Of a DNA stretch of 43,506 nucleotides, positions 13,251 through 33,357 are shown one piece after another. A program made the position numbers and the translations under genes. The notes under the pieces are model-generated. The model made no database searches. It had not been told where the DNA came from and was given only the letters and a program-made list of their open reading frames with translations. Positions within the stretch are counted from its first letter, which is position 1. Each line of letters begins with the position of its first letter. Source of the stretch: Paludibacteraceae bacterium (GTDB taxonomy: Bacteria; Bacteroidota; Bacteroidia; Bacteroidales; Paludibacteraceae); the NCBI GenBank assembly GCA_024401555.1, contig JAKSKV010000028.1, positions 1 through 43,506 on the forward strand, read 5' to 3'.

Positions 13251-13781
13251 TTATATTATATATTTCTGCCAATCATTTGTGATGTTGGTATATCGAGTTC
13301 CATCGTAAGCAAGAATCTGCTTCCTTAATGTTGGTGCGTACGAAACGTGAACCCACTTTTTTCCGTTGGCCTGCTCGATTATAAGCTGGTCGTATATGCC
13401 ATTCTTGATAACAGCCTTGAAAATGTCATAAACACTTCCTTCACTGTATGGCTGCATGTCTGCCGCCTGTCCAGTCATGTGCTGCGAATTTCCGGCACGA
13501 CCGCTGATGATCATCTCCAATTGGGGACAACGGTAGGCAGATGTTATGCGTATAGGGTGGCCAAAAATTTCTCTGACCGGGTTAAGCACATTGTCTCGAA
13601 GAAGCAAAAGATTCTGCCAGGCTTCCTTGGTAGGCGTATTATCAATACCTCTTGCTATTGCCGTATCGCTATGCTTCAATTCTGACAATGAGAAGTAATT
13701 TTGTCTCATGATTTTTTTTTCTGACAAAAGAATAAGGCCGAATCCTGCTATTATTCCAGATGTCGCTAATTTCTTATTCAT
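13251..13781 (-). CDS. M15-family peptidoglycan peptidase (endolysin-type)
   Basis: A 176-aa protein with an N-terminal hydrophobic segment (~residues 5-20) followed by a peptidase M15 domain. The zinc ligands are in SQHMTGQAADM (His101, Asp108) and WVHVSY (His145), the classic SxHxxGxAxD and W-x-H pattern of D-Ala-D-Ala carboxypeptidases and L-Ala-D-Glu endopeptidases. It likely cuts peptide cross-links of peptidoglycan, either at entry as a virion enzyme or at lysis. It is the last gene of the late region, 10 kb away from the lysozyme, which slightly favours a virion-associated role. Confidence 0.88.
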   Translation of the reverse strand: MNKKLATSGIIAGFGLILLSEKKIMRQNYFSLSELKHSDTAIARGIDNTPTKEAWQNLLLLRDNVLNPVREIFGHPIRITSAYRCPQLEMIISGRAGNSQHMTGQAADMQPYSEGSVYDIFKAVIKNGIYDQLIIEQANGKKWVHVSYAPTLRKQILAYDGTRYTNITNDWQKYII

Positions 13782-14115
13782 TTACTCTGTCTATAAAGGT
13801 CTTTATTTGGTGTGCCTTTTTATTCGTCGTCAGGCCTAAAAGCATCGACAATGCAGTTGCTGCCGTCTGAACTTTTTGTGTCTGCTCAGGACTTTTACTT
13901 TTTGCAATCCCTAAAAGGGATTTTGCGAGTAGGATATTCTCGTCTTTTAAAAATTCTGGCACAGTTGACAATTCCTTTACCCTACATTCATATTCCTCCT
14001 TCATGTCCTTGAAATCGGTTTCGCTCCCTCCGAGGTCCGGGTGCATCTTTTTTGACAAGATCCTATATAGTGCGTTGCATTCTTCTATGTCATTAATTTC
14101 GTCGAAATATGCCAT
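13774..14115 (-). CDS. J-domain-like protein
   Basis: A 113-aa protein whose first ~45 residues carry a shortened J-domain: YRILSKKMHPDLGGSETDF contains the HPD motif (residues 25-27) flanked by the usual helix II and III patterns. There is no Gly/Phe region or zinc finger. J-domains stimulate Hsp70 (DnaK) ATPase, so this may recruit host DnaK for virion assembly. The C-terminal half is helical and of unknown role. It overlaps the peptidase gene by 8 bp. Confidence 0.7.
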   Translation of the reverse strand: MAYFDEINDIEECNALYRILSKKMHPDLGGSETDFKDMKEEYECRVKELSTVPEFLKDENILLAKSLLGIAKSKSPEQTQKVQTAATALSMLLGLTTNKKAHQIKTFIDRVNE

Positions 14116-14205
14116 GTTGTAATATTATTGATTAGTATGGCAAAGAAAGTAAGCAACTCGGTTGATACAAAAAAAGGTGAGCAAATTGCCCACCCTAAAA
14201 ACTGA

Positions 14206-14721
14206 TTAATCACAGATGTTGAAATACCACCGTACAAAGTTTGGTTTGTCCTTGTCTTGAAGTTGTGAAACGGCAAGATCATAGCATATTTGAAGATACT
14301 TCATAGAATCGCCATCACTCCACTTCTGAACTATGTTGTGTTGGTCAGACGAGAACTTGTTGGCCATTGCGTACAATGAATATCTGTTGTAGTATGGTTC
14401 TTGCTCGATCAAACCGCCAATGTCAGCAATTCGTTGAAAGAACTCTTCCGGATTTTTCCATCTTCCACCTCGACTACCATCTTGGTTGACGAACAGAGAG
14501 ACGGCATTTTCCGCTTCTTGCTCAGTAAGGTAGTTGTTGAACAACAAAGTTCCCTCGAAGCATTCGACGAATTCCTTTGCCTTACGAATGTCTGTGTCCG
14601 AAAGCAGTTCCACAGCCTTCTGGAACATCATCTTCGTAGTTTGCATCTCTTGTTTAACGCCTCCTTCTATTGTCTTGTTGAGAAGACGATTGAACTTGAT
14701 TAAAATGTCATTTCTATCCAT
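14206..14721 (-). CDS. Hypothetical late protein (171 aa)
   Basis: A 171-aa, mostly helical protein (MDRNDILIKFNRLLNKTIEG...) with a Gly-Gly-Arg-Trp segment in the middle and many aromatic residues in the C-terminal half. No family with a known function is recognised. It lies 4 bp from the next upstream gene and belongs to the 16.5-13.25 kb unit with the Gly-rich protein and J-domain protein, so it is probably a virion or assembly protein. Confidence 0.65.
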   Translation of the reverse strand: MDRNDILIKFNRLLNKTIEGGVKQEMQTTKMMFQKAVELLSDTDIRKAKEFVECFEGTLLFNNYLTEQEAENAVSLFVNQDGSRGGRWKNPEEFFQRIADIGGLIEQEPYYNRYSLYAMANKFSSDQHNIVQKWSDGDSMKYLQICYDLAVSQLQDKDKPNFVRWYFNICD

Positions 14722-14725
14722 GTGC

Positions 14726-15223
14726 TTAACTTTTTATTCCTTTAACCATATCCAATATGGTAGTTTTAAGATCTGTGATTGAAGTCTCCATCTTGTTGAA
14801 GCGTTCGTCAATCTTCTCGAATCGTTCGTTCGTCTCCATCTTCTCACGAAGAGACGGATCCCAATCCGACAAAATCTTCTCATACTCCTTTAGATCCTTT
14901 TTGCGTTCGTCAGACTTTGACAACTCTTCCTCACATTGTCCTTTAAGGACTTGTACCTCCTGCAATATTCCGGCTAATTCCGTTGCGATGACTAAGTCAC
15001 TTGAATAGGTGACAGTCAACGAATCTGGTATTGAGTAGGTGCGTGTCACGCCATTGCATTCGATCGTGACGTCGGAGATCATCTGCATCTGCATCTGCAT
15101 CATGTTGTTTTGTGTCGCTGATGGCGAAACATTGATCACCTTACCTTGATGTATTTTCTTCTCTCCATTTTTGTTTAGAATGAAGACCGGATAATTAGGC
15201 TTTAAATCTTTAAACTGGAGCAT
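14726..15223 (-). CDS. Late protein with beta N-domain and C-terminal coiled coil
   Basis: A 165-aa protein. The first ~80 residues are beta-rich (FKDLKPNYPVFILNKNGEKK) with a MQMQMQM run. Residues ~85-160 are a long charged coiled coil. Function is not recognised. The architecture suits a structural or scaffolding role in the same unit as the Gly-rich coiled-coil protein. Confidence 0.65.
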   Translation of the reverse strand: MLQFKDLKPNYPVFILNKNGEKKIHQGKVINVSPSATQNNMMQMQMQMISDVTIECNGVTRTYSIPDSLTVTYSSDLVIATELAGILQEVQVLKGQCEEELSKSDERKKDLKEYEKILSDWDPSLREKMETNERFEKIDERFNKMETSITDLKTTILDMVKGIKS

Positions 15224-17389: not shown

Positions 17390-18799
17390 TCATTTATTGG
17401 GATATACTTTATAATATCCTTCCCAATAAACTGTATCCCCTTCTTTGAGTTTTAGCATATCATCAGTACTATCTCCTTTATTAACCAAGTTCATATAAGC
17501 CTTTAATGGTGCTTGAACACAACTACTATTTGAATTGTTAGCATATTGTAATCCTAAGTCTTTAGTTGTATCAATACCAAACTCAAATACATTATCTCCG
17601 AGTATTTGCTTGAATCCATAGCAATATTTGTCACCACATTTTTTAGTTCCAACAACAGAAGAGAAAAGAGAAACTCCACGATCGGCTCTACAACCAATGA
17701 AATATGCTGGTGCAGAATTATCATTTGTATACATTGAAAGTCCATAATGCAGAGAGATACGCATATCTTCAAGCGCAGTAATCTCACATTTTACATTAGC
17801 CTTTGTTTCTCTTGCATCAAAAGTTATTGTGAATTTCTGCTCCATAATTTCTCTTCCACTACCATCAGCTTTTGCAGTATTTGCACCTTGCAGTCTATTA
17901 GTGATAATAATTCTTGCAGTATTGCCAACGATAGGACTTCCAATCTCTACATCTTCGCCATCTACGGAAATGCCGAAATGTACATTCCTTGCTGATGCAC
18001 CACCGGAACCTGTAGTACCATTGTGACTATGCACACCACCTGTAAAATGTTCACTTGTAAAATTAGGATAGTCACCATCAGCATTGTTCTCTGCATAAAT
18101 TATTGATGGAGATAGGAAATCAGTAGCACCAGAAACAATCTTAGTTATTAGTGCACTTATATTAGTACTAACTTCATCCTTTGTATTATCCAAAGTTCCA
18201 AATGATGAAAAGTCAGGAAGATTATTTATTGCTTTACGACTAAAGCAAAAAACAAAGTCTTTATCCTTTAAATATCTATGTATATAAACTCTTGTTTCAT
18301 TAGAAGAAGATATTGCACAAAGTTGATTTCTTGAAGCATATTTAGACGCTTTTACAAATTCTTCTTGAGTCATTTTTCGAGTCTTTCTGATAAGCAATGA
18401 TGTTTGATCGATACGAGTATTTATGTAGAGTTTATTCGCTCCATTAGGGATTGTTATCTCTTGCTCTATGTATTTTTGTGCTGTACCTGATAATAGAACC
18501 TTTGTCGAATCACCTAATGTAAACGCTCCAACAAAATCACTATTAGTGCTAAACGCATTAATGGTATAGACCTCGCCTTCAATTACATCAAGAATTGCAT
18601 ATTCGTACGATGCGTTAGACGATTCAGAAAGTCTTTTGTCAATGAGTTTACCTTCAACTACTGATGTTGGTTGTATATTCACAACAATGTCTGGAAAATC
18701 TACTTTTTTTCTATCTACATTATTAATTCCATCCTCAATTTCATTCAGATCCTGTGCATGAAGCACATCTCCGTCTTTAAAATTATGTGTGTTATACAT
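17390..18799 (-). CDS. Putative receptor-binding spike/fibre
   Basis: A 469-aa protein. The N-terminus FKDGDVLHAQDLNEIEDGI is a widespread phage tail/spike N-terminal motif (F-x-x-G-x-V-L-x-A-x-x-L-N-x-I-E). It is followed by beta-rich repeats, a Gly/His turn segment (GGVHSHNGTTGSGG, ~265) and a jelly-roll-like C-terminal region. It likely recognises a surface glycan. Its AT-rich composition and the lectin-fold gene beside it suggest an exchangeable host-range cassette. Confidence 0.7.
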   Translation of the reverse strand: MYNTHNFKDGDVLHAQDLNEIEDGINNVDRKKVDFPDIVVNIQPTSVVEGKLIDKRLSESSNASYEYAILDVIEGEVYTINAFSTNSDFVGAFTLGDSTKVLLSGTAQKYIEQEITIPNGANKLYINTRIDQTSLLIRKTRKMTQEEFVKASKYASRNQLCAISSSNETRVYIHRYLKDKDFVFCFSRKAINNLPDFSSFGTLDNTKDEVSTNISALITKIVSGATDFLSPSIIYAENNADGDYPNFTSEHFTGGVHSHNGTTGSGGASARNVHFGISVDGEDVEIGSPIVGNTARIIITNRLQGANTAKADGSGREIMEQKFTITFDARETKANVKCEITALEDMRISLHYGLSMYTNDNSAPAYFIGCRADRGVSLFSSVVGTKKCGDKYCYGFKQILGDNVFEFGIDTTKDLGLQYANNSNSSCVQAPLKAYMNLVNKGDSTDDMLKLKEGDTVYWEGYYKVYPNK

Positions 18800-18813
18800 A
18801 TCTTAATCATTTA

Positions 18814-19767
18814 TTAGTTTAATATAAATTCTCCCAATCTCGTCAGTCGGAGTATTCCATAGCCACCGTTATGCAACACCCAGCCTTTGTTCAACAACTT
18901 GTCCTTGAGTTGTTGATTGTCTGATATATACTTGTAGTTAAAGTGTGATACATCCAATACTCTTGATTCGGTCACTTGCCATAATTTGTCTATTAGATTG
19001 TCTATCTCAACATCTTTCAAGAGTATCTTCTTTATGTCAAGAGTCTTGCTACTTTCATTAAAATGTTTCTTTACAAAATGCCAAAGCGGAACTCTTTTAA
19101 TAAGAGGGTCTGTATTGACTAATTCAAGAGTAGTGAGTTTGTCTTTTGAATTGTACTTGCGATATGCTCCGTCAATGTAATATACGTTATTGATTGCAGT
19201 ATAAGAAGTCTTGATTTCGCTATCTGCCCACTGATAATAATCACCATAATCAGTAGGAGTAGTAGCACTAAGATTACAATCTGCCCAACGAACGGAAAGA
19301 CCTAAATCAATGCCTTTAGTTTCTGATACAGGACGGATAGTTCTTCCGTAATTACGATTATATTGAGATACTATTATAGAATCGTTACGAAATTGAAGAA
19401 ACCAAGAACCTGTGTTGCCATACACTTCGCTTGCCCAAAACATTCCAACAACTCCAATAAAGTGATGGTCATTATTTGCTTTATACCCACCAGCCCTCAA
19501 GAATATACTATTACCATTACTTCTACTCTTAACCTCATAACCATTAATCCCTTCAATAGTCTTCCAAGTCCAATCACAAGAATTAATTAGTTCTTGATAT
19601 TCTGCTCTTGTAGGCATTCTCCAATCTTTGCCGAGAAGTTGTCTTGCAGTATCATCAGAAAAATTCTCCTTTTCTTCAAAAATGACAACTCCTTTATGTA
19701 TTGCCTTTTTCACAGAGCGACCCATGAAAAAAATGTCTGTTGCCGTTTTATCTTTTAGTTTTATCAT
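18814..19767 (-). CDS. C-type-lectin-fold adhesin (Fib_succ-like), rearranged
   Basis: A 317-aa protein. Residues ~45-150 match the second half of the Fibrobacter succinogenes major paralogous/DUF1566-like lectin fold: DWRMPTRAEYQELI, NGNSIFLRAGGY, ASEVYGNTGSWF and GRTIRPVS. Residues ~152-190 then carry the normal first half (GLSVRWADCNLSATTPTDYG, DYYQWADSE). The usual order is the reverse, so the domain appears permuted or left by deletion between two tandem copies. A unique C-terminal domain follows. A likely ligand-binding spike part. Its ATG overlaps the upstream stop (TGATG). Confidence 0.7.
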   Translation of the reverse strand: MIKLKDKTATDIFFMGRSVKKAIHKGVVIFEEKENFSDDTARQLLGKDWRMPTRAEYQELINSCDWTWKTIEGINGYEVKSRSNGNSIFLRAGGYKANNDHHFIGVVGMFWASEVYGNTGSWFLQFRNDSIIVSQYNRNYGRTIRPVSETKGIDLGLSVRWADCNLSATTPTDYGDYYQWADSEIKTSYTAINNVYYIDGAYRKYNSKDKLTTLELVNTDPLIKRVPLWHFVKKHFNESSKTLDIKKILLKDVEIDNLIDKLWQVTESRVLDVSHFNYKYISDNQQLKDKLLNKGWVLHNGGYGILRLTRLGEFILN

Positions 19768-20396
19768 CAGTCAGCAATTAAATATAGACAACCGTTATTC
19801 TTATTAGCATCAGACAATGCGTCATACTCCTCCTGACTTAGCATCACTACCTTGTGTGCAAAGTAGTCGTTAAGGCCATTGATGTTGAGATAATATTCAT
19901 CCATGCTTTTCTCTTTCGATTCTGACTTAGATTCAGCATCAAACCAATCATCATATACCTTGTCTGCTTTTTTCGTAGAATATGTCTCGATACGATTGTC
20001 TTCATATACCACGACGGTATATGTATTGTTTTTAGTTATACCGGAGAAAATAAATTGCGGATAGTATTCAATCAATGGCAATGTTTTTTGAAAATAGTTC
20101 AAAAAGATTTGATTATTTAGCAATGCGTCTCGCAACATTTGATAGGTGTAAACCAATCCTGACGAATCTACAATTCGTAGATTGCCGCTCATCCCTGGAT
20201 TGTAGTTAATGAACAAAACTAATATAGGCATTATGCTTTGATTCATCTCCATCTCAAACAGATGCACACCATTTCTATAAGACTTCTCTACACGAAGTTT
20301 GCTCTCGCTCTTCGATATGATGTCAACCTTTTCCGTTCCACCGCCTCCGCCTCTTTTCGCCATTGACAAATATGCTGTGTTTATATTGCTGCTCAT
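19767..20396 (-). CDS. Spike-associated protein with NTAYLS-G5 N-terminus
   Basis: A 209-aa protein. Its N-terminus NINTAYLSMAKRGGGGG closely parallels that of the next gene (LNIAYLSEEESSSGGGG), suggesting a shared anchoring peptide to the same virion site. The C-terminus VVMLSQEEYDALSDANKNNG, then CLYLIAD, is the common end motif of phage fibre proteins (x-x-x-YDAL-x-x-x-x-x-x-x-LY-x-I). It is probably part of the host-attachment complex. Confidence 0.65.
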   Translation of the reverse strand: MSSNINTAYLSMAKRGGGGGTEKVDIISKSESKLRVEKSYRNGVHLFEMEMNQSIMPILVLFINYNPGMSGNLRIVDSSGLVYTYQMLRDALLNNQIFLNYFQKTLPLIEYYPQFIFSGITKNNTYTVVVYEDNRIETYSTKKADKVYDDWFDAESKSESKEKSMDEYYLNINGLNDYFAHKVVMLSQEEYDALSDANKNNGCLYLIAD

Positions 20397-20409
20397 AATA
20401 TTTTTTTAT

Positions 20410-21441
20410 TTACAAAATGAATGGGAAACCATCTATTGTTCTTATAGTAAGAATCTGTGGCTTATATGCTTCAAGATTGATTTCCTTTTTTGCCGAATAA
20501 AGAGATACTAATAATTTGTGATCTTCTTCTGAATAAAATACCAGAGAGTATTCTGGCAAGAAAATATCTATGTTATATAGATATTTCAATACAAGATTAG
20601 ACGTTTCTCCAGTTCGATGAACTTCTATTTCTCTCTTATCACCTAAATATACAATTTCTTCCGATTCATCAATGATTTGCTTTACATTTCCTCTTATTAT
20701 ACTAATAAATAAAGCATGCCTATCTTGATATGTTTGATTTCCTGTTCGAGGATAACGAATATATTCGACATCTACTCTAATTGTTTCTCCGTATTCTATT
20801 TGTACGAATTGACAGTTGCCACAAAATACTATATCCACATTACCAAGAGGGGAATCAGACCAAGAATCACCATTTTTCGTTCTCTTCATCTTTTCCACAC
20901 CCCTTGCATCAAAAATCATAGGCTTCCCAATGCCATTGTACTTGATTTTGTTTTGAATGTAAACAACCTTACGCTTGAATGGGTTATGTTCGTGTTGAAC
21001 ACCATAATCATCAAGCAATTCATCAGTAAATTGTTCAATTGTTGCGACCAATGGTTGAAATATGCCTTTGCCAGTAAGATCAAAATCAAATACCTGAAAA
21101 GAAACTTTATCTGACATTCTGTAAGTGAATTTTAAATATACAGAATTGTCTCCTCTGTACGCAACATTATTTGAATTATAAAGTTCATAATCGTCCTTAT
21201 AATTCATCTTGTCCATATTATATATTTTAGTTGCCTCGTTGTACTTTACATCTACCGTTCCATTGGGAGATTCAATATGTACTTTTGAACGCAAACCATA
21301 AACATCTTTTTCTGGCGTGCTTTCTGATTTATCAACCGATATACTATCATCGAGTGGTTTAATTTCAACAATTTTTCCACCTCCACCGGACGAAGATTCT
21401 TCTTCCGAAAGATACGCAATATTCAAATCAACGTCCATCAT
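20410..21441 (-). CDS. Spike-associated protein with NIAYLS-G4 N-terminus
   Basis: A 343-aa protein with the anchor-like N-terminus described for its neighbour, then a mainly beta-structured body (VHIESPNGTVDVKYN; VYLKFTYRMSDKVSF). No enzymatic motif is seen. It overlaps the upstream gene by 4 bp (ATGA). It is likely a structural or receptor-binding component. Confidence 0.65.
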   Translation of the reverse strand: MMDVDLNIAYLSEEESSSGGGGKIVEIKPLDDSISVDKSESTPEKDVYGLRSKVHIESPNGTVDVKYNEATKIYNMDKMNYKDDYELYNSNNVAYRGDNSVYLKFTYRMSDKVSFQVFDFDLTGKGIFQPLVATIEQFTDELLDDYGVQHEHNPFKRKVVYIQNKIKYNGIGKPMIFDARGVEKMKRTKNGDSWSDSPLGNVDIVFCGNCQFVQIEYGETIRVDVEYIRYPRTGNQTYQDRHALFISIIRGNVKQIIDESEEIVYLGDKREIEVHRTGETSNLVLKYLYNIDIFLPEYSLVFYSEEDHKLLVSLYSAKKEINLEAYKPQILTIRTIDGFPFIL

Positions 21442-21843: not shown

Positions 21844-22410
21844 TTAGTTCTTGACTACCTCTACTGCCTCCAAAGTCGTTATAGTGGAGTATGGCGAATA
21901 GTTTTTTACACTTGTTTTGCCACTATATCTTTTCCATTTCCACCAAAGAAACCTGCGTGTCTTTGCATACGAAACAACAAGTATGGAATCTTTCAGATGA
22001 ATGTTGGCCGTATCTTTTGATATTGTTATGTCAAGCCAGGGATCCTTGTAATTCATTGCAAACACCGTATCGCAAATGAAGACGGTATCAAGGAGAACGG
22101 TCGCCTTTTGTTCTTCCACGATTTTTGTTGCCGAATGCACGTCTTTTGACTTGACGTTTATTGACGCCAGTTCTTCTTTTAGTATCTCCTTCACTTCGTT
22201 GGCCGTCAGCGTCTGAACCTTGACTTCCGAAACATTCTTGCCGTCTTTGCTTTTGTACGTTTTTATGTCCGATTGCAAAGCTTCTATGTTGCTTTGTAAT
22301 CGTAAAATCTCGCACGCCTGTTCTCTATTCCGCCTGATGGACAAGATGGCTAAGAGAACAAGCGCCACGAGAAACACAAAGAATATAACTGTTAGTCTAT
22401 TTATTTTCAT
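21844..22410 (-). CDS. Rz-like i-spanin candidate
   Basis: A 188-aa protein starting ATG 22410, directly behind the lysozyme stop. The longer in-frame extension overlaps the lysozyme gene and is rejected. An N-terminal membrane anchor (VIFFVFLVALVLLAILSI, ~6-23) is followed by a coiled coil, then a beta-rich end. Location after the lysozyme and type II anchor plus coiled coil are the features of inner-membrane spanin subunits. Similar proteins are common in Bacteroidetes phages. The outer-membrane partner is not identified. Confidence 0.65.
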   Translation of the reverse strand: MKINRLTVIFFVFLVALVLLAILSIRRNREQACEILRLQSNIEALQSDIKTYKSKDGKNVSEVKVQTLTANEVKEILKEELASINVKSKDVHSATKIVEEQKATVLLDTVFICDTVFAMNYKDPWLDITISKDTANIHLKDSILVVSYAKTRRFLWWKWKRYSGKTSVKNYSPYSTITTLEAVEVVKN

Positions 22411-22411
22411 T

Positions 22412-22936
22412 TCAAGAAAAATAGAGGTTTGCCTCTTCTTCTCGTCTCCTAACAAGTCCTGGCAATACAACGCCATTTCCCAATCGCCATTTTGCGAATT
22501 CGGTTCTGATGTCCGGATTGTTAGGGTTTTCATTGACAAGTTTCAGGAGCGTTGATTTCTTGAGGTTGTTCAGGCCGAGGTTGAAGGCGAAGGATACAAG
22601 TGCGTCAAATTGGTTTTGCGTCAGCTGTTTGTTCACAAGTCTGTTCACTCCATCCTCAAACACCTTCAGATCATTCAGGAAAAGCGTTTCGGCCTGCTTC
22701 TCCGTTATGGTTTGACCTTCCCTTACGTTTGCAGTGTGTCCCCAGCCGATTGTCCAATGTCCGGTTGGGCATAAATAAGATGTAAGTTTCAAGGATTCAA
22801 ACGACTTAATCAAGTCTTTGCCTTTTTTCGATGTACTTTTAATCACACTCATGCTGTCAATCAATGTTATTGTACCAGCCGCTATCATTGCAATAGCGGC
22901 TGAAATCTTCTTAGCGATCTTATCCAAAATGATCAT
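22412..22936 (-). CDS. GH24 lysozyme with N-terminal membrane anchor
   Basis: A 174-aa T4/P21-type lysozyme (glycoside hydrolase 24), cleaving the MurNAc-GlcNAc bond of peptidoglycan. The catalytic triad region reads E47 ... C56 ... T62 (KSFESLKLTSYL, then CPTGHWTIGWGHT). Cys replaces the Asp of T4 lysozyme, a natural variant in many phage members. Residues ~8-27 are a weakly hydrophobic Ala-rich segment that could serve as a signal-anchor-release sequence, allowing export without a signal peptidase. Its start overlaps the next upstream gene by 4 bp. Confidence 0.92.
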   Translation of the reverse strand: MIILDKIAKKISAAIAMIAAGTITLIDSMSVIKSTSKKGKDLIKSFESLKLTSYLCPTGHWTIGWGHTANVREGQTITEKQAETLFLNDLKVFEDGVNRLVNKQLTQNQFDALVSFAFNLGLNNLKKSTLLKLVNENPNNPDIRTEFAKWRLGNGVVLPGLVRRREEEANLYFS

Positions 22937-24082: not shown

Positions 24083-24472
24083 TTATTTTTTTAGTAAAAC
24101 ATACCCTAAAAGTCCCAAAACGGTGACACCGGCAACTCCCAACGTGATGTATAAAGCCGTGTTTGCAGCTTTGTTCTGCTGTTCGTATTTATCCATCGCC
24201 ATTTGAGCGGCTTCGATTGTCTTGTTTGCAGCCGCAATCCTTTCTTGTGCAGCTCTGATGGCCGCTTCGTCCCTTTGCCTTTTTGCCTCTTCCAAGGCCA
24301 ACTCGTTTGCCGCCTTTTTTGCAGTTGCTTGATCGTTTGCAGTCTTCGCTTCTTGATACGAAGAATACATTTGTGATCCAGTTTTAACAACTGTGTCGAT
24401 CACACCTGCCCAATCCGTTTCTCCAACTCCATTGGAGGAGAAAATATCATCGTAATCGTATCTTACCATCAT
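24083..24472 (-). CDS. Ala-rich coiled coil with C-terminal TM
   Basis: A 129-aa protein: a short acidic N-terminus, a long Ala/Glu/Lys coiled coil (~45-100) and a C-terminal membrane segment (ITLGVAGVTVLGLLGYVLL). Tail-anchored coiled-coil topology. No enzymatic motif. The gene overlaps the upstream one by 4 bp. Confidence 0.7.
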   Translation of the reverse strand: MMVRYDYDDIFSSNGVGETDWAGVIDTVVKTGSQMYSSYQEAKTANDQATAKKAANELALEEAKRQRDEAAIRAAQERIAAANKTIEAAQMAMDKYEQQNKAANTALYITLGVAGVTVLGLLGYVLLKK

Positions 24473-26103
24473 TGAATTTTTGAAAAGTTATAATACTCGT
24501 CGTAGCAATCGGAATTCAACTCAAAGCCTTGATCTTCGTATGCCTCATACAATCCTTCGTAAGGTCCATAACCTTCGTAGTAAGACTTGCAATAGTCGTA
24601 AGATTGAGCGTTTGGGCGACTTCCGCTAAACATTCCGCAGTCGCACCAGTTGCAGTTTTCTGCCCTTGGATTCTTGCCGGATGCGTGATTATTGATCACA
24701 CTGTCGGACGATGATGCGAATGCCGCTATCTTCATCTCGAAGTCTTTACCTCTCATGTTGTTTACCGCTTCAAGGTCATAGAACAGACAGCCGCCTGCCT
24801 TTAGGCCTCCATATTCGGCAAAAAGAATGCTCATTTCCTCTTTGCTCGGAACTTCAAGGATGGAGAATGGCTTGTAGTAGGCCTTTGTATTGTTGAAGTA
24901 GTCGTATTGCACTCGGTAGGGTGCCAAATACTGCCTATATTCATGATAGACCTTTCCATTTGCACGGAACTTGATTTTCGGTTCTTTCACGATTGGCATT
25001 TTCACACGCACAAGAACGGAACCTCTTGCCGGAATCATCATCTTTTCGGCAACACGTTCGGTTGGCGATTCGACACCGGCCACCACCTTCGTTCCGTCAC
25101 GGTCCTCCCACTTGTAGGCTTGCTCAATCTTCTGTAACAGTTCGATCGCGATTGCCGGCTTGCTGTAATAAGCCTTCAGGTCACGATAGTTTGAACCACT
25201 CTTTTCGAGCGAATAGGATATTCCTTGCGTGTGATAGATGGCAGACAAGTCGAATAGTTCGTCTGCATTCTTTACCATGTCAATCTCGAAGTCGGAAGGT
25301 GCGAGTTTGAAGTCCATCTCCAACCTTGAATCTTGCTTCGCAACCTCGTCATACTTGATGTCAGATGTAGGGACGGCACGCATCAGATAATTGCTCCAAT
25401 ATTCCGTTTGTGCGAATGGAGACGCCTTTAGGTTGAACGCTGCATCCTTCGTTGTACGGTCGTAGATGGAGTAGTCAATTCCTCCGAAGTTAGGCATAAG
25501 AGGGTAGCACTTGTCTCCTCCGCAAGTCAATCCGCTGAAACGCAACTTCGACAAAGGCGCTTCAAAGTCGAATGGGTTGAAAACCTCAACAACGAAGTCA
25601 ATCACGTTGTATTCCCCTCGGAAGAATGGCATCACCGGCATCTGTTGGAACGGCTCCTTGTTTGATGGCCAGTCTTTCATGAAAACATTCTTTGGCCCAA
25701 CGCCAAATGTTGAATACAACTGATTTTTTTGAATTGAGTTGCTGCTGTCCAACTTCGACACGTTCAGTCTCTTAGGATCTGACATGGCAAAAAACGGACG
25801 AATGATCCTACATCTATATGCTCTTGACAATGCGTTTTGGATTCCTGAAATCATATTCAAAGCCTCCTGGCTCGAATAAACATCATCGTTAGTATAGTCG
25901 TAGAAAGGATCATACTTCTCCTTTCTGTTGCCGAAATACATTGCACCTTTGCGTGGGTCGTTGTCGTTTTCTTCTTCCTCTTCCAACACGTCTTCATCAA
26001 TCATTGTAGGGTCTTCTACAATAGGAAGATCTTCCTTCTTTCTCGAAATCAAGAAGGAGGCACCCAGTGCTGTTGTTATAAGCGATAATATTCCTGTAAT
26101 CAT
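24469..26103 (-). CDS. Large membrane-anchored beta-rich virion protein candidate
   Basis: A 544-aa protein with an N-terminal TM (ILSLITTALGASFLI), an acidic linker (DEDVLEEEEENDND), then a beta-rich body. The segment NVIDFVVEVFNPFDFEAPLS and the later IPARGSVLVRVKMPIV resemble an LEA14/LEA2-type beta-sandwich. The C-terminus is rich in Tyr, Gly and Cys (ENCNWCDCGMF; YYEGYGPYEGLYEAYEDQGF). It is the largest protein of the membrane block, and a spike base, vertex or capsid-membrane bridging role is plausible. No homologue of known function is recognised. Confidence 0.65.
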   Translation of the reverse strand: MITGILSLITTALGASFLISRKKEDLPIVEDPTMIDEDVLEEEEENDNDPRKGAMYFGNRKEKYDPFYDYTNDDVYSSQEALNMISGIQNALSRAYRCRIIRPFFAMSDPKRLNVSKLDSSNSIQKNQLYSTFGVGPKNVFMKDWPSNKEPFQQMPVMPFFRGEYNVIDFVVEVFNPFDFEAPLSKLRFSGLTCGGDKCYPLMPNFGGIDYSIYDRTTKDAAFNLKASPFAQTEYWSNYLMRAVPTSDIKYDEVAKQDSRLEMDFKLAPSDFEIDMVKNADELFDLSAIYHTQGISYSLEKSGSNYRDLKAYYSKPAIAIELLQKIEQAYKWEDRDGTKVVAGVESPTERVAEKMMIPARGSVLVRVKMPIVKEPKIKFRANGKVYHEYRQYLAPYRVQYDYFNNTKAYYKPFSILEVPSKEEMSILFAEYGGLKAGGCLFYDLEAVNNMRGKDFEMKIAAFASSSDSVINNHASGKNPRAENCNWCDCGMFSGSRPNAQSYDYCKSYYEGYGPYEGLYEAYEDQGFELNSDCYDEYYNFSKIQ

Positions 26104-26321
26104 ACCAAGTCTTGTCTGTTTAGTCTAAACTCCAAATTATCCTCCATTCTGACAAGGTCAACCATTGGGTTGACGGCCACAGTTCCACAACCTTTACGTT
26201 TGTTTTGCCCAAGTCCGGCTGTTCCTTTCTTCTTGTCGTCCTTCAAAAGGGCATACACACCAACAGCACACAAACCTAACGCTGCAATACTTGCCAACGA
26301 AATAGCACCAACTATCTTCAT
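26100..26321 (-). CDS. Small single-TM protein
   Basis: A 73-aa protein: N-terminal TM (ISLASIAALGLCAVGVYALL, ~7-26), basic KDDKKK border, a Gly/Lys-rich stretch and a short C-terminal part. This is one of the series of small membrane proteins. It overlaps the 544-aa gene by 4 bp. Confidence 0.7.
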   Translation of the reverse strand: MKIVGAISLASIAALGLCAVGVYALLKDDKKKGTAGLGQNKRKGCGTVAVNPMVDLVRMEDNLEFRLNRQDLV

Positions 26322-26340
26322 AAATCTTATTTTTTAGTTA

Positions 26341-26838
26341 TTAATACAAGCAAGTCATTCCAGACAGAAACCCAGCCTGGTCGAATTTGATATTCAACTT
26401 CTCCATCAGAGACGAACTGCACTCCTTTTTGAGCCACTCACGCAAGTTAAGACTCGTTCCGTCCATCCAGTCGAACAGCGGAGATCCGAATGTTCCGTAC
26501 TTCTTTGTGCCGAATGCCAGGACAACCATCTTCAAGTCCTCTGTTGTCAATTTGTTTCCGATGATAAGACGCTCTATTTCGTCCTCGTCGGTTCCAGAGT
26601 CCTTCATCGCATTGTATAGACGGTTGGCAATCTCCTTTGCTTGCGCCTGTGTGATAGTAGTGCCCTTGGCGTTGATCTCATCGGTTGTTTCGGTCAATAT
26701 ATTGTCCGCAGACTCCTTTTCCTTGTCCTTCTTCACGAAGATCTTATACGCACCGAAAGCCAATGCTACCGCAGTTGCGCCACCGACAATCCATGCGGAC
26801 GTCTTTATCTTACCTTTGTTGTCTCTAATGTTTATCAT
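26341..26838 (-). CDS. Membrane-anchored annexin-like protein
   Basis: A 165-aa protein. An N-terminal TM (~13-32) is followed by a linker and a helical domain whose AKEIANRLYNAMKDSGTDED and following DEIERLIIGN, DLKMVVLAFGTKKYG read like one annexin repeat (A-x-x-LY-x-AMKG-x-GTDE-x-x-I; x-x-x-AF-x-x-x-YG). In eukaryotes this repeat binds membrane with calcium; here only a structural resemblance is claimed. It may help curve or stabilise a virion membrane. Confidence 0.65.
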   Translation of the reverse strand: MINIRDNKGKIKTSAWIVGGATAVALAFGAYKIFVKKDKEKESADNILTETTDEINAKGTTITQAQAKEIANRLYNAMKDSGTDEDEIERLIIGNKLTTEDLKMVVLAFGTKKYGTFGSPLFDWMDGTSLNLREWLKKECSSSLMEKLNIKFDQAGFLSGMTCLY

Positions 26839-27302: not shown

Positions 27303-28208
27303 TTAAACTGTTTGATAAAGTCCATCATCCTCCTTATCCTCTTCGACTTTAACTTCTTCTTGCGGTTCGCTTTGCGGAGTTTGATTTTGCGAAGGCGGCT
27401 CTTGCTGTCCTATTCCGAACAATCCGCATAAGATTGGAGACTTTGAAATCAACGATTCTGCTGCAGAAGACAAGGCAAGACTTCCGACAGCTGCAATCCT
27501 TTGATTCTTTATGCTCATCTCATCGAATTGATCGGCCTTCTCCTGCAACTCATCGTTTTCGTCTTCCAACTTTTCGATTTGCATTTTTAAGGAGAGTATT
27601 TCGTTCTTTGCCGCCTCCAACTCTGCTTTAAGGCGTGAATTGTCCTTTTCCAGTTCAATCATCCTTTCAAGCTGCTTCTGATTCTCGAAGTCCCTTTGCA
27701 TCGTGCGCTTCTGTGCCTCAAGAAGCACACCGCTAACGCCAAACTGCTCGTTTACGCCACCCAAGCCTTGCATGCCTAAAAATGCCTGTCCGAACATTTC
27801 CCAAGCATTTACGTTCATATCGGGTATGAAACTTTGTTGCTGCTGTTGTTGTTTCTCTTCCTGTCTGTTGTCCACATTTGGCTGTTGTTGTGGACAGATG
27901 GAATTTCCGTCGAACGAATAAACGTCGTCGATGAAGTACCTCTTTGGATTTCCCTTACCTCCACTTACCCATACTTGGATCTTAACCTGCGAACAACCTC
28001 TCTTGTGCAAATCATCAATGGTGGCGCAGAAATTCTGATAGGATTCGTGTCCGTCGTTGTCCGAATTGCTTCGCTTGGGACCCTTCCACGAAGATCCCAA
28101 CTGTGGGATGATGTAGAATATATCCCAATTTGCATGGCTCTTTCCGGCGATGTAATCCTTTACTTCGTCCTTGATTAGAGCGATTTGACTTTCAATTTCC
28201 TCTGTCAT
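27303..28208 (-). CDS. Late protein with N-terminal domain, Q-rich linker and long coiled coil
   Basis: A 301-aa protein. The N-terminal ~110 residues form a globular domain (YIIPQLGSSWKGPKR; VKIQVWVSGGKGNPKRYFID), followed by a poly-Gln linker, then a coiled coil (~170-225) and an acidic Pro/Gln-rich tail ending DDGLYQTV. Function not recognised; a scaffold or replication-assembly link is possible. The upstream 28209-28326 stretch is non-coding. Confidence 0.6.
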   Translation of the reverse strand: MTEEIESQIALIKDEVKDYIAGKSHANWDIFYIIPQLGSSWKGPKRSNSDNDGHESYQNFCATIDDLHKRGCSQVKIQVWVSGGKGNPKRYFIDDVYSFDGNSICPQQQPNVDNRQEEKQQQQQQSFIPDMNVNAWEMFGQAFLGMQGLGGVNEQFGVSGVLLEAQKRTMQRDFENQKQLERMIELEKDNSRLKAELEAAKNEILSLKMQIEKLEDENDELQEKADQFDEMSIKNQRIAAVGSLALSSAAESLISKSPILCGLFGIGQQEPPSQNQTPQSEPQEEVKVEEDKEDDGLYQTV

Positions 28209-28326: not shown

Positions 28327-28674
28327 TTATTCATTTGCGGAAATCTTAATGATGTTTATAACCATCGGATCCAAATCGTTTCCGGTCCTCTTTACGTTGA
28401 TGAACTGCTTCATCACCTTGTGTATGTTTACGCCCATGGCCGACACCCTGAGAGACGATCCCGATATACAGTCGGAAGCCGAAGAAATGCTCACGCAATC
28501 ATTGTTTGAAAGCTGGTCAGATCCGAAAAATACAGATGATATGATGGCTGTGTCTGCTCCGATTGATACGCACTTGCATGCACCATCGACAACAATCTCT
28601 TCCGTCGAAACAATCGGCTCAAACCCATTTCTTCTGATCTTTTCCTGCTCTATTGTCACAATCTTATTCAGCAT
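28327..28674 (-). CDS. Beta-rich late protein (115 aa)
   Basis: A 115-aa protein. The start at 28674 overlaps the upstream stop (ATGCTGA), so it is preferred over an ATG 33 bp further up. The body is Val/Ile/Ser-rich (VDGACKCVSIGADTAIISSV) with several Cys, consistent with a small beta-sandwich. First of four adjacent beta-rich proteins leading to the coat candidate. Unknown function. Confidence 0.6.
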   Translation of the reverse strand: MLNKIVTIEQEKIRRNGFEPIVSTEEIVVDGACKCVSIGADTAIISSVFFGSDQLSNNDCVSISSASDCISGSSLRVSAMGVNIHKVMKQFINVKRTGNDLDPMVINIIKISANE

Positions 28675-29165
28675 TCTTCGCCTCCTTTCCTTCTGATTAT
28701 GTAACATTCAACATCGTAGGCGAACAAGAACTTTTTATCTCGATCGTAAACCGGCATGAAGTTGTCCGGCACATTGTTGACATTCTCATTCACGACAATC
28801 CTTACAGACGAATAAGGCTTCTTGTAATCAACCGGGATGATTATCTTGTTGAGCGTTGCGCCATACTTAACTTGGATAGGCACAGCAGGCGATATGACAT
28901 CTCCGTTGTCAACGCTAACGGAAGCCGTTGCGAATGATCCGTCCGTCTTGCTGAGCAAACCTTCGTTCAACGAAAGAAGTTGAAGTATTCCAAGCCCGCC
29001 ATCAAATACGATTGACGTGTCCTTTTCCACGATTTTTGTTGCCGAAATTGGGACATATACGGCCACTCCAACTATATTGCCATTTGTCGGGGAAATAGGA
29101 ACATCTATCTTGAAGGAAGAACCTAACAAGTGCGGCTCAACTTTATGTTTAATCAATTCAATCAT
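28668..29165 (-). CDS. Beta-rich capsid-type protein candidate (165 aa)
   Basis: A 165-aa protein with alternating hydrophobic strands throughout and a last strand LFAYDVECYIIRRK. The early segment ISPTNGNIVGVAVYVPISAT and middle VKYGATLNKIIIPVDYK fit a jelly-roll-like beta-sandwich. It overlaps its neighbours on both sides. It may be a minor capsid or vertex protein; sequence alone does not prove the fold. Confidence 0.6.
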   Translation of the reverse strand: MIELIKHKVEPHLLGSSFKIDVPISPTNGNIVGVAVYVPISATKIVEKDTSIVFDGGLGILQLLSLNEGLLSKTDGSFATASVSVDNGDVISPAVPIQVKYGATLNKIIIPVDYKKPYSSVRIVVNENVNNVPDNFMPVYDRDKKFLFAYDVECYIIRRKGGEEC

Positions 29166-29541
29166 TGTCGAGCAAAAGATATAGATATAACTTGCAGTCG
29201 GAAGTCAACGCTCCGTTTGGATCCTTAACCTCCAATTCAACCATGCTGTTTTGGGCCAAAATGCCATCAGACTCCTTTATCTCGAATATGGTATCTTTTC
29301 TTGAAACGAGCGGAGACTGCAACATAAGAGAGACGTGAGTGCCGACTGGCAACACTTCCTTTCCACCGATTCGTAGGCTGCATGTCAAGTCGGATGCGTA
29401 GATTTGAGCGAATTCCTGCAACGTCAAACTCTTTGCCAACGAGAAGATGACACCTGCCACTCTCTTGAAGTCGCTTCTTGTTCTTTCGTTGATCACCAAC
29501 TTGTCGCCAGTTACCTGGAATCTTTGATATACTTTATTCAT
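29158..29541 (-). CDS. Beta-rich capsid-type protein candidate (127 aa)
   Basis: A 127-aa protein with strands at both ends (YQRFQVTGDKLVINERT ... CKLYLYLLLDND) and the turn VKDPNGALTSD near the end. It is one of the adjacent short beta-sandwich-like proteins that finish in a hydrophobic terminal strand. It overlaps both neighbours by 4-8 bp. Function inferred only from context. Confidence 0.6.
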   Translation of the reverse strand: MNKVYQRFQVTGDKLVINERTRSDFKRVAGVIFSLAKSLTLQEFAQIYASDLTCSLRIGGKEVLPVGTHVSLMLQSPLVSRKDTIFEIKESDGILAQNSMVELEVKDPNGALTSDCKLYLYLLLDND

Positions 29542-30287
29542 ATCCTATCTATTTGAATTTTACTTACAAAAAACAAGGCCATCGTATAATCAGGCTGCAT
29601 GTTGTGAAGCCTGATCCGTGGCTCCTTACCCACATCTACCACATCGTCCGGAAAATTCCACTTGACGTCCTTCCAAGTGCATTTGCCGAACGGCATGATG
29701 TCTCTATAGTCAAACAAAGGCATAAGCGTATCGTTGTCGTCAATAGACACTTCAATAGGACTAATGCCAGAGTACATTACCGGTTTACGGCTTCTTAGAT
29801 AGCAGAAGAATGATTGAGGCTTGTATTTTAGCGTCAACTGCTTTATCTCATCATTCATCTCCTTGCTCTCTATGAAAACAATCTCTTCTTTTTCAACTTC
29901 CCCATCTGTTGATATGTCGAACACAACATCAAGCGAATCATCAACAGGCATTTCCGACACCTTGACCACTCCCTTGGTCGTGTTGACGCAAGATGGTATT
30001 TCAAAGAGCCTATAGTCGAGCGTTCCAACGGCCATGTGGTTCATGAACACAGAGACGCCGCTACCGTATATGTCAGAATATGACTTTAGGTTAGCGATGA
30101 AAGGTTCGACAATAAGATCCTTACAAAGTGATATGCCGTCTAACTCAACCGTTATTCTTGGGTTGATGATGTCCGGATCGTCCAACTTCTCGCCCTTCTT
30201 AACGAAAAAGAATCCCCTGATGCTTTTTGTCTCGGCTGGAAGTGTTGTGATTGTCTGCGATGTCGATGTTGGGATTGTGAATAGCAT
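29538..30287 (-). CDS. Beta-rich capsid-type protein candidate (249 aa)
   Basis: A 249-aa protein starting ATG 30287, just downstream of the coat-gene terminator; a longer frame would run into the terminator. The body is beta-rich (KSIRGFFFVKKGEKLDD; PRITVELDGISLCKDLI) and ends RLHNMQPDYTMALFFVSK. It could be a second capsid or spike protein with two beta domains. Confidence 0.6.
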   Translation of the reverse strand: MLFTIPTSTSQTITTLPAETKSIRGFFFVKKGEKLDDPDIINPRITVELDGISLCKDLIVEPFIANLKSYSDIYGSGVSVFMNHMAVGTLDYRLFEIPSCVNTTKGVVKVSEMPVDDSLDVVFDISTDGEVEKEEIVFIESKEMNDEIKQLTLKYKPQSFFCYLRSRKPVMYSGISPIEVSIDDNDTLMPLFDYRDIMPFGKCTWKDVKWNFPDDVVDVGKEPRIRLHNMQPDYTMALFFVSKIQIDRI

Positions 30288-30306
30288 GGATCTTGATTTT
30301 TTAAAC

Positions 30307-30346
30307 AAAAAAAAGAGAGTGAGGGACAATCTTCCACTCACCCTCT
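30307..30346 (-). terminator. Strong terminator behind the coat candidate gene
   Basis: On the minus strand AGAGGGTGAG pairs with CTCACTCTCT (one G-U), followed by a run of seven to eight T. It lies between the 192-aa gene and the next gene, giving the coat candidate a discrete, probably abundant transcript. Confidence 0.88.
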
Positions 30347-30368: not shown

Positions 30369-30947
30369 TTACGAAATGATCAATGAGCCGATCAACTCGA
30401 TGCGGACAGCCGTGTTTGTAACGGTAGCACCGCTGTTGATGCGCAATGTTGGCACGATCTCACTTTGAGGAGTGATCAATCGTGGACAGTCAAGCTCATA
30501 GTAGCCAATTGAACGGTTAGAGTCGGTTGTGTTGAAAAGTTGACAAGAGTTGCGTGGGAAGGCTGTTCCTCCCGCAACTGTGATGTCCAACTCTGCGTTC
30601 TTGATTACGTCAGCAGCAACACCGAAAGATGCGCCAGCCAAATCGGCAGCAGAGTCACCTGATACAGTAGCAGACAACACTCGAATACCCTTCAAGAGGA
30701 AGTATTGTGCAGCCTCCATCTTTCTGTTGTTCAAGTTTGTCACCCCCTCTACCTTGTTGTCGCTTGCTTGCATCAACTCTGTCGTACCGGCTGAAACCTT
30801 GCGAGTTGCATAAAATGACGCATCTACGATTTTAAGTGTGTGGTTTGCCAAACGCTCTACGATCTCAACTGGTAATACTCCTTGCTCTGCCAACTTCTCC
30901 ATCTCGATGAGGGAAGTCGAATTCTTTGTACCTACAAATGGATTCAT
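30369..30947 (-). CDS. Candidate major coat protein (192 aa)
   Basis: A 192-aa protein. The N-terminus MNPFVGTKNSTSLIEMEKLA is helical; the rest has Ala/Gly/Thr-rich beta segments (FYATRKVSAGTTELMQ; AELDITVAGGTAFPRNSC) and ends in VRIELIGSLIIS. No tailed-phage HK97 coat signature is recognised. Reasons to suspect the major coat: neutral composition, lack of enzymatic motifs, a flanking strong terminator, and location between the membrane proteins and other beta-rich proteins. An alternative is a major structural protein other than coat. Confidence 0.55.
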   Translation of the reverse strand: MNPFVGTKNSTSLIEMEKLAEQGVLPVEIVERLANHTLKIVDASFYATRKVSAGTTELMQASDNKVEGVTNLNNRKMEAAQYFLLKGIRVLSATVSGDSAADLAGASFGVAADVIKNAELDITVAGGTAFPRNSCQLFNTTDSNRSIGYYELDCPRLITPQSEIVPTLRINSGATVTNTAVRIELIGSLIIS

Positions 30948-30987: not shown

Positions 30988-31446
30988 TTAATAGCATCCG
31001 CCTACAATTCCAGGAAGTGCCTCTTTCACGCCCGCTGTACCTGGCAATCTCTCGCTACCATACATAGGAGTTTGTGCCGGAATTGCGCGAGGAATGATCA
31101 AAGATCTTGAATTGATAGGAGCCACAATGTCGTCGGTAGCACCCAACGAGATAACCTTGCTTCCGCTAACTCCGTTCACCAACTTGGCTGCACCTACCGA
31201 TGCTGCACCTACGCAAGCTGCTTGTGCTGTCTTGTTGTTCAACATGGCTGCGCCTACAATGCCGGCTACAGTGATCAACCCAGGAACGACGTATTTCATC
31301 GTGTCTGTCTTTTCTGGAGTCTCTTCTCCAAGGAGTCGGCCAACCGTCTCGCTTTCACTTGCTTTTTTTGTTGCGTATGCCGTGATTGCCACGCCTGCGA
31401 AGGCTCCGGCAAAGGTCATAAGACCATCTTTAATGTTCATCTTCAT
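30988..31446 (-). CDS. Virion membrane protein candidate with two TM segments
   Basis: A 152-aa protein; ATG 31446 is chosen because the extension overlaps the upstream basic protein. TM segments at ~6-23 (LMTFAGAFAGVAITAYA) and ~52-70 (YVVPGLITVAGIVGAAML), then Ala/Gly-rich and a Pro/Gly C-terminus ending GIVGGCY. Unknown family. Confidence 0.7.
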   Translation of the reverse strand: MKMNIKDGLMTFAGAFAGVAITAYATKKASESETVGRLLGEETPEKTDTMKYVVPGLITVAGIVGAAMLNNKTAQAACVGAASVGAAKLVNGVSGSKVISLGATDDIVAPINSRSLIIPRAIPAQTPMYGSERLPGTAGVKEALPGIVGGCY

Positions 31447-31465
31447 ATCTGATCGATTTTTTGGG

Positions 31466-31663
31466 TTAGAATTTGAGTGCCTTATGGCGCTTAGAAGACT
31501 TCTTTGATTTTGACTTCTTCTTTCGTCGTTTGCCACCGACACCTCCAAGCGACTTTGATTTCTTTTTGTCCTTCGACATCAACGCCCATGCACCGAGTCC
31601 TACGCCGGTAGCTACAAGGCCCCATCCTACATACTTCTGCGTCTGTTCTGATAATCCAAACAT
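31466..31663 (-). CDS. Single-TM protein with highly basic tail
   Basis: A 65-aa protein. N-terminal TM (YVGWGLVATGVGLGAWALM, ~11-29) followed by a tail with about 20 Lys/Arg (KRRKKKSKSKKSSKRHK). A membrane anchor with a nucleic-acid-binding tail could attach the genome to an inner virion membrane. Role inferred. Confidence 0.75.
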   Translation of the reverse strand: MFGLSEQTQKYVGWGLVATGVGLGAWALMSKDKKKSKSLGGVGGKRRKKKSKSKKSSKRHKALKF

Positions 31664-31675
31664 ATTTCCACTTTT

Positions 31676-32026
31676 TTAAATTAATACTTTCATGATAGCA
31701 CCGACGGCTGCAACGACAATTCCAGCGATCAACACCTTGCTTGTGCCTTCCGACTCGCTTACGGTTGTTTCAGAATCAATGTTGCTCGGAACGACTGGCG
31801 TTGTCTTTTTTTCGTCATAAACAGAGATGTATTGGTTAGATACATAACCGCTTTTGCCGGCATAATTCACAGCCGTCCATCCTTCCACCTGCATCAACAC
31901 GGAGTTGCTTTCGATAACCGAACCTTTTGGAATGCTTGCAAGTATTTCTGATGTCGTGTTCGGAAGTTGCCTTAGATGCAAGTTTCCCAAAGGACCATCA
32001 TCCTTGGTCGTCACGATATACTTCAT
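31676..32026 (-). CDS. SH3b-domain protein with C-terminal TM
   Basis: A 116-aa protein. Residues ~13-70 form a bacterial SH3 domain (LHLRQLPNTTSEILASIPKG ... EGWTAVNYAGKSGYVSNQYI). A Ser/Thr/Glu linker and a C-terminal TM (VLIAGIVVAAVGAIMKVLI) follow. SH3b domains usually bind cell-wall peptides, so this may contact peptidoglycan from a membrane. Confidence 0.82.
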   Translation of the reverse strand: MKYIVTTKDDGPLGNLHLRQLPNTTSEILASIPKGSVIESNSVLMQVEGWTAVNYAGKSGYVSNQYISVYDEKKTTPVVPSNIDSETTVSESEGTSKVLIAGIVVAAVGAIMKVLI

Positions 32027-32027
32027 G

Positions 32028-32333
32028 TCAATCCTCCTTCTTCTTCGGCTTGTCCGTAAAAATCTTCTTTACGACTTGTCCGGCAACCATTCCGATAGCC
32101 AGCCATAGGGTTGCAGTCAGCATGTTTCTCGTCTTAGTGCATTCTGCATTACACATTGTGATTTCATTTTGCATTTCCATATTCATAATCATGTTTTGTT
32201 GTTGTGGCATTGATGATGCACTCGGTTGAGAAGATGGGAGATTGAACGTAGTCTGCTCCTCGATGTTTTCCCTCATAATCGGTGCGTCGTATGTGTCGCC
32301 AATGCCGTTTAAAAATTGAAGTCCGAAAGCCAT
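32028..32333 (-). CDS. Small protein with Met/Gln-rich segment and TM
   Basis: A 101-aa protein: polar Ser/Gln/Met-rich N-terminal half (MPQQQNMIMNMEMQNEITMC) and a TM at ~71-88 (LTATLWLAIGMVAGQVV) with a basic/acidic tail. Unknown; part of the membrane block. Confidence 0.68.
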   Translation of the reverse strand: MAFGLQFLNGIGDTYDAPIMRENIEEQTTFNLPSSQPSASSMPQQQNMIMNMEMQNEITMCNAECTKTRNMLTATLWLAIGMVAGQVVKKIFTDKPKKKED

Positions 32334-32334
32334 G

Positions 32335-33357
32335 TCAAAAATCCTTTTTATTAGTGAATGGTTTTTGATAGAAACAGTAGTCAGTCACTGGATCACAAGG
32401 CAACTCTTGTCCATTTTGCATTGCGATAACATAAACGTGCTGAAAGTATCCTTTGTGGTCATATTCCGCTATGCGAATTATGTATGGAATATTCAAGTTT
32501 TCAAAGATCGAGGCAATGAGAAGGGAGAAACAGTCGCAATCGCCTTTCTGCTCCTCAAGTGTGCGGAGTGGCGATCTTACCTGTTCGTTTTTCTCGCTGT
32601 CTCTAACATATTCAATGTGATTGAACACAAAATCGAAAACGCTACGCACCGTCTCCTTGACGGTATTTCTTTTTAGGCGTTTCGACAACTCCTTAGTCTG
32701 CCATGCACAAGACTTGGCCATCTTCCTGATGAAAGAAGCCGTCTGTTCTGGTGTCACGTTTTCGATTAGGATTGGGTCGGTGTGTTTGTTGTTTGTGTAT
32801 CTCGGAATGACGGAACCGTAATTAGACAACGAACGAATGTTTCTTGTCAAAGTTGGCGTATAACCGACGCCATCGAGCGAAACCTCTCCTGTCTCCACGT
32901 CAATCACTATAGGCTGCTGAAGCGATCCGTTCAAAGTGAAGTCTATCCTTATCTTAATTCCGGAAAAGGCTTCATACAAACTTCCATAACTTCTTATAAG
33001 AGAGAGAGCGGAAAGGTAGGGGATAACGATGTCGATAGGTATTGTCGTATCACGATAGGAAGATAATACGAAATCGTACTTCTTAGCCTTTGAATAGGCG
33101 ATTTTAGAGCCGCCCTTGTAAATGTCAACCGAGTTTATTGTTCCCTTTACCGTCTGGTCGCTTCTGTTGCCTATGACGGCAGAAAGAGGAAGTTTAACAC
33201 CGGACGTAGATATGTTTATATCGTTAAGGTCGCCATACCAGTTTACGCCAAATGTAAGGCCCTTCACGGCATTGACTGTACTTGCCGTTTTCGCATAGAT
33301 CAAAGTTGCGATTGCAGCAAGTCCCAAACCTCCGATTATGTAATATTTCTTCTTCAT
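32335..33357 (-). CDS. Membrane-anchored LEA14-like plus transglutaminase-like protein
   Basis: A 340-aa protein, first structural gene of the late region. TM at ~6-22 (YIIGGLGLAAIATLIYA). Residues ~33-165 form a beta domain like LEA14 (VKLPLSAVIGNRSDQTVKGT). Residues ~205-330 are a transglutaminase-like papain-fold domain with Cys274 in KGDCDCFS, His307 in YFQHVYV and Asp322 in CDPVTD, the expected Cys-His-Asp order. It may be a protease, amidase or cross-linking enzyme acting on the cell envelope or virion. It follows five 10-bp repeats and a late promoter-like block. Confidence 0.82.
   Translation of the reverse strand: MKKKYYIIGGLGLAAIATLIYAKTASTVNAVKGLTFGVNWYGDLNDINISTSGVKLPLSAVIGNRSDQTVKGTINSVDIYKGGSKIAYSKAKKYDFVLSSYRDTTIPIDIVIPYLSALSLIRSYGSLYEAFSGIKIRIDFTLNGSLQQPIVIDVETGEVSLDGVGYTPTLTRNIRSLSNYGSVIPRYTNNKHTDPILIENVTPEQTASFIRKMAKSCAWQTKELSKRLKRNTVKETVRSVFDFVFNHIEYVRDSEKNEQVRSPLRTLEEQKGDCDCFSLLIASIFENLNIPYIIRIAEYDHKGYFQHVYVIAMQNGQELPCDPVTDYCFYQKPFTNKKDF

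Follow-up and report, generated by a model that had tools for sequence, protein, structure and literature searches.

For Salisaeta icosahedral phage 1 (SSIP-1), the literature gives a particle size of 100 nm, a triangulation number of T=49 and a 44-kb circular double-stranded DNA genome (PMC6260650); another paper lists it among membrane-containing phages, with hardly any sequence similarity to GenBank (PMC6356626). In the literature that we searched, most subscription journals and bioRxiv lying outside it, we found no report of relatives of this kind, and SSIP-1 is still unclassified in our copy of the NCBI taxonomy. Here we analyzed a stretch of 43,506 bases (the window), which is one complete contig (C81) of a 3.52-Mb assembly of a Paludibacteraceae bacterium in 159 contigs. 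The window very probably represents a large, temperate and tailless phage, likely membrane-containing. We regard this phage as a divergent and widespread form of the type known from SSIP-1 and not as a virion of a novel type. The SSIP-1 host likewise belongs to the Bacteroidota. An initial annotation of the same DNA had proposed an undescribed larger lineage, considering that tailless membrane phages have genomes of about 9-15 kb. This limit does not hold, as the SSIP-1 genome measures 43.8 kb and shares structural genes with the window; the branch of the window is indeed new, while its kind was already known from SSIP-1.

The first link was a flavobacterial homologue of the transglutaminase-like protein of the window, which matched gp34 of SSIP-1 (24%, 1e-3). 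Family profiles then matched gp34 (3.3e-20), gp40 (9e-19), gp44 (1.8e-6) and the integrase gp13 (3e-6), the first three being annotated as structural in the SSIP-1 record. Their counterparts in the window are, respectively, the transglutaminase-like protein with an N-terminal transmembrane (TM) segment (32335..33357, minus strand; PF01841, 3e-6), a RecA/KaiC-like ATPase (9961..11571, plus strand; BLASTP to gp40, 2e-13) and a small membrane protein encoded directly upstream of the candidate coat gene (30988..31548, minus strand), whose true start is probably near 31446, where its homologues begin. SSIP-1 resembles the window in its genome of 43.8 kb, circular as is probable for the window, in these three structural genes and in the integrase. 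The only order common to both is gp34, gp44 and coat, because the ATPase, helicase and methylase genes of the window sit on the opposite strand from its late operon.

Integrated relatives bridge the two genomes. A search with gp34 at the phylum level matched 59 of 395 genomes, many of them weakly, and the strong matches clustered in one bacterial family (f142). Seven regions of this family (among the prophages L099-L107) share the order gp34, gp35, gp40, giant protein, gp44 and a coat of the gp45/46 type, and six of the seven also contain a gp47 match. As in the window, gp34, gp40, gp44 and a coat are present, and window profiles recognized the f142 homologues of gp34 (5e-16), gp40 (2e-31) and gp44 (5e-11). 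On the contrary, the f142 coat, one per region, matches SSIP-1 gp45/46 and not the window coat by sequence. Fourteen f142 genomes carried gp34-like genes with E below 1e-22, three of them in two or three copies.

The f142 giant protein matches gp43 of SSIP-1, a giant structural protein of methylase type, near its C-terminus only, and both giant proteins compared combine a methylase with a helicase. In the window these activities are predicted for separate genes, a 1569-amino-acid SNF2 helicase with an LPD1 domain (5239..9948, plus strand; PF00176, 7e-14; LPD1, 5e-9) and an Eco57I-type N6 adenine methylase (3879..4628, plus strand; PF07669, 3e-13), which are counterparts of the corresponding parts of the f142 protein at the gp43 position (phmmer against a three-sequence set, 2.5e-33 and 2.7e-18). 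Neither matched gp43 itself. Both enzymes, which take the place of a giant structural protein of the relatives, may travel with the genome.

The window ATPase, which is KaiC/RadA-like, and gp40 both match phrog_6891, and it is the only open reading frame (ORF) of at least 60 amino acids in the window with a strict GxxxxGK[ST] motif. As the SSIP-1 counterpart is annotated as structural, this enzyme may drive the genome into the particle. However, we infer this packaging role with caution, since the family is not exclusive to the SSIP-1-like group and occurs in other phages, including Bacteroides phages (10 named p00). The best phage match of the window ATPase was in a 636-kb uncultured phage record (LR756504.1, 200495-200995; 36%, 7e-18).

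We then considered the coat. The initial annotation had pointed to a row of short beta-rich proteins at 28.3-30.9 kb, and these do include the candidate major capsid protein (30369..30947, minus strand), which has 192 amino acids and a predicted structure with one single-jelly-roll domain. The orientation of the jelly roll may be vertical, and the protein would form an icosahedral shell of single-jelly-roll capsomers. Sulfolobus polyhedral virus 1 (SPV1) and HHIV-2 outranked the double-jelly-roll rows among its structural matches. A tailless phage of the double-jelly-roll type, such as PRD1, PM2 or FLiP, which had been the comparators proposed at first, is accordingly a very remote prospect: the coat candidate is a single domain of 192 amino acids (the fold prediction covered this protein and not those of 544 or 267 amino acids), and the FtsK (PF01580) and DUF87/HerA (PF01935) profiles matched other contigs of the genome and neither C81 nor C84, a second contig discussed below. 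The better comparators are the single-jelly-roll viruses SSIP-1, SPV1, HHIV-2 and P23-77. The idea of a large tailless phage with a probable membrane and a temperate lifestyle stands as the best reading, with the comparators exchanged.

The coat family is represented in the window by one ORF (4e-66; next, 0.36 among 195 window ORFs) and by one ORF each in C84 and in a contig of a related genome, G139:C12. More generally, 34 of the 35 loci having any such ORF have a single one, the loci being mostly stretches of at most 21 kb. Only L018 has two (102-650 and 14918-15508), 14 kb apart, which may belong to a second element or reflect a duplicated coat. The window might still encode a second coat of unrelated-looking type, for example 29538. 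SSIP-1 instead has two coat-like paralogues, gp45 and gp46 (25% identical), whose homology to the window coat is not seen by sequence, as profile searches gave no significant match. The hhalign alignment was co-linear but weak, and when the gp45/46 profile was run against 4036 other ORFs, two of the first three rows belonged to the window coat family (36 members), with non-significant E values of 1.1 and 3.7.

Having only one coat gene, whose product is predicted to fold like that of SPV1, the window is directly relevant to the origin of the single-jelly-roll viruses with two coats. SPV1 (Portogloboviridae) has a genome of about 20 kb, an archaeal host and a presumably nonlytic cycle (PMC8459092), and is described as having no packaging ATPase (PMC8812541), which sets it apart from the window. 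Helvetiavirae (HHIV-2, HCIV-1, SH1 and P23-77; realm Singelaviria) are presented there with two coat genes and an FtsK-HerA ATPase, while the window has one coat-family gene and a RecA/KaiC-like ATPase; in the scenario proposed by the same source, the ancestor of Helvetiavirae resembled a portoglobovirus with a single coat gene, which was later duplicated, and an FtsK-like ATPase was acquired (PMC8812541). It is conceivable, although we would not go as far as calling it probable, that the window and its relatives form a phylum-wide lineage retaining this single-coat state, packaging by a RecA/KaiC-like ATPase instead of FtsK-HerA, with the SSIP-1 branch doubling its coat independently. If so, the group would merit a new taxon of high rank and two-coat shells would have arisen more than once.

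The late region itself (13251-33357) is a nearly continuous run of leftward genes, as first described (about 30 genes had been counted), of which 31 ORFs were retained as likely genes. The PHROGs scan covered 28 of the 31 late proteins and the Pfam scan 24, only 27048-27290 being in neither; a part of the early proteins was scanned too. Within this scope, no family at E <= 0.01 pointed to a terminase, a portal, an HK97 coat, a protease, a tape measure, a tube or a baseplate, in agreement with the initial annotation. Two weaker rows of the PHROG head category appeared, 26341-26838 against a "virion structural protein" family (E 0.047) and 27303-28208 against a head maturation protease (E 0.13); the latter segment is a coiled coil, and many of its further rows are coiled-coil ones. 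The whole genome gave one Terminase_6N row, below cut-off and on a different contig. One could argue for a tailed phage in which divergence has put the terminase, portal and HK97 coat beyond the reach of profile searches, considering its size of 43.5 kb, the lysozyme, M15 endolysin and spanin-like genes frequent in tailed phages, the presence of its ATPase family in the Bacteroides phages mentioned above and the row at 0.047. We regard this as very improbable, given the lack of any hallmark at E <= 0.01 among the late proteins scanned, a longest late ORF of 544 amino acids, the predicted jelly roll of the coat candidate and the three structural genes in common with a tailless phage. A simple hydropathy scan gave TM-like segments in 11 of the 31 late proteins (at least ten had been announced); such small TM proteins would populate an internal lipid membrane.

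We also asked how far the gene set extends. Using the 544-amino-acid protein as query against 300 genomes of the same family, matches were obtained in two genomes, namely in the window, in C84 of the same genome (39,184 bases) and in G139:C12 (46,702 bases). Results showed that 14 of the 18 genes of 22412-33357 have BLASTP homologues in both other contigs in the same order, with about 23-56% identity; therefore, the late gene run is more than a chance arrangement. Of the remaining four, 27303-28208 has a BLASTP homologue in C84 alone, and neither contig gave one for 24083, 26100 or 27048. Both contigs also have homologues of the ATPase, the integrase, the M15 peptidase and the J-domain protein. 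The gene order of C84 is permuted relative to the window and one gene reads intact across its ends, so that C84 is a circle; it contains a second, distinct lineage member (L008, L009) of 39.2 kb in the window's own genome.

The window is probably a complete circular genome as well, because both of its ends sit in an identical 12-bp tandem repeat (1..67 and 43337..43506) with an exact overlap of 51 bases, and the left copy finds its sole other match in the genome (E <= 0.001) at the right end. A temperate lifestyle of the window phage is suggested by a single gene, the tyrosine integrase (12020..13054, plus strand; PF00589, 1e-22). Among the relatives, G598:C67 has an exact 46-bp repeat at 17-62 and 42206-42251 together with an integrase-family ORF (237-1442), and others are embedded in contigs of up to 1.6 Mb, which indicates that members of the lineage integrate. 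In sequence, the 46-bp repeat resembles the 3' half of a tRNA; ARAGORN called no tRNA in the stretches analyzed.

Further relatives include two IMG/VR contigs (45.9 and 57.9 kb), later additions and 28 loci in GTDB species genomes, with entries labelled Flammeovirga sp. EKP202, Saccharicrinis aurantiacus HQYD1, Breznakibacter xylanolyticus DSM 6779, Gaoshiqia sediminis A06 and Carboxylicivirga sediminis JR1. For DSM 6779, the coat gene falls beyond the end of the stretch analyzed. The coat-family gene follows the transglutaminase-like gene in 22 of these 28. Among the loci without it, L022, L033, L035 and L039 stop at or near the transglutaminase-like gene, L017 extends further and has no coat gene, and the match of L041, an archaeal one, is marginal. 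The transglutaminase profile matched 39 of 393 genomes of an order-level sample, mostly as short loci, so that this number is not a count of phages. SSIP-1, formerly almost alone, thus gains relatives in several Bacteroidota groups, including entries labelled as strains that are inducible in principle. The late region had no megablast match among 50,697 phage records, nor had the 544-amino-acid and transglutaminase proteins by tblastn, and this group of phages is nearly invisible to present tools.

As tails and terminase were not recognized and some relatives are chromosomal, the locus could be a defective or domesticated element (a satellite, a transfer agent or a protein compartment) in which a capsid module persists, although infectious particles are no longer made. 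This is unlikely, although less so than a tailed phage, since independent contigs have the late genes in the same order and with open reading frames, at the identities given above, the integrase and lysis genes are retained, and two different members occur in one genome as circular-looking contigs. For a functional SSIP-1-like phage, we would expect the leftward late operon to be expressed once the phage is excised.

The other late genes, all on the minus strand, can be assigned as follows. The transglutaminase-like protein may help the virion to mature or to pass the cell wall, and two small proteins beside it (31676..32333), one with an SH3 domain (SH3_3, 1.2e-7) and a C-terminal TM segment, have homologues in the same position. 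After the coat gene, at the position of gp47, a beta-rich protein (29538..30341, start probably at 30287) is a candidate second capsid or vertex protein; it has homologues in relatives, is related to 29158-29541 by iterated profile and shows no sequence link to gp47. The latter neighbor (29158..29541) is a 127-amino-acid, beta-rich candidate minor capsid protein, with 33 members by iterated profile, a count that includes 29538-type proteins and repeated contigs. Two more beta-rich candidate minor virion proteins follow, at 28668..29165 (homologues in the same position) and 28327..28707 (16 members by iterated profile, including repeated contigs), as well as a coiled-coil candidate scaffold or internal virion protein (27303..28208; 18 members by iterated profile, including repeated contigs).

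Two small single-TM proteins of 73 and 165 amino acids by TM scan (26100..26838), the larger one at 42% to relatives, precede the 544-amino-acid protein (24469..26103), a candidate spike or membrane-anchored vertex protein with an N-terminal TM segment, with 27 and 30% to two relatives and no match in Pfam or PHROGs. The TM scan also showed a C-terminal anchor in a 129-amino-acid protein (24083..24472) and two TM segments in a 381-amino-acid candidate membrane virion protein (22933..24078; 35% to both relatives). Lysis genes correspond to those first annotated, a phage lysozyme (22412..22936; PF00959, 4e-44), a spanin-like protein of the DUF6549 family that has a single TM segment (21844..22539; PF20186, 4e-26) and an M15 peptidase endolysin (13251..13781; PF08291, 6e-15; phrog_894, 3e-32), which together would release the progeny. 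Four fast-changing proteins (17390..21441), for which C84 and G139:C12 gave no homologue at E <= 0.01, are candidate fibres or spikes that would bind the receptor; an Lcl_C-like match within 18814-19767 was below cut-off. A J-domain protein (13774..14115; DnaJ, 7e-4, below the curated cut-off) is kept across the family, with 12 members by iterated profile.

Outside the late region, short A+T-rich tandem repeats with units of 11 to 32 bp at 3356-3452 might serve as iterons in an origin of replication. A cytosine methylase (37302-38420; PF00145) is followed by a second ORF (36786-37301), and two ORFs also occupy this place in G139:C12 and L012. ARAGORN called no tRNA at two hairpins of the minus strand (40564-40574 and 42007-42017) that resemble tRNA T-arms with an acceptor-like end and lie about 31-33 bases ahead of an early gene start. 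They fold slightly better than shuffled sequences (z -2.2 and -1.2) and are possibly tRNA-like processing signals. Similar hairpins occur in L005 (7249 and 8433), L012 (745 and 941) and L009 (1413).

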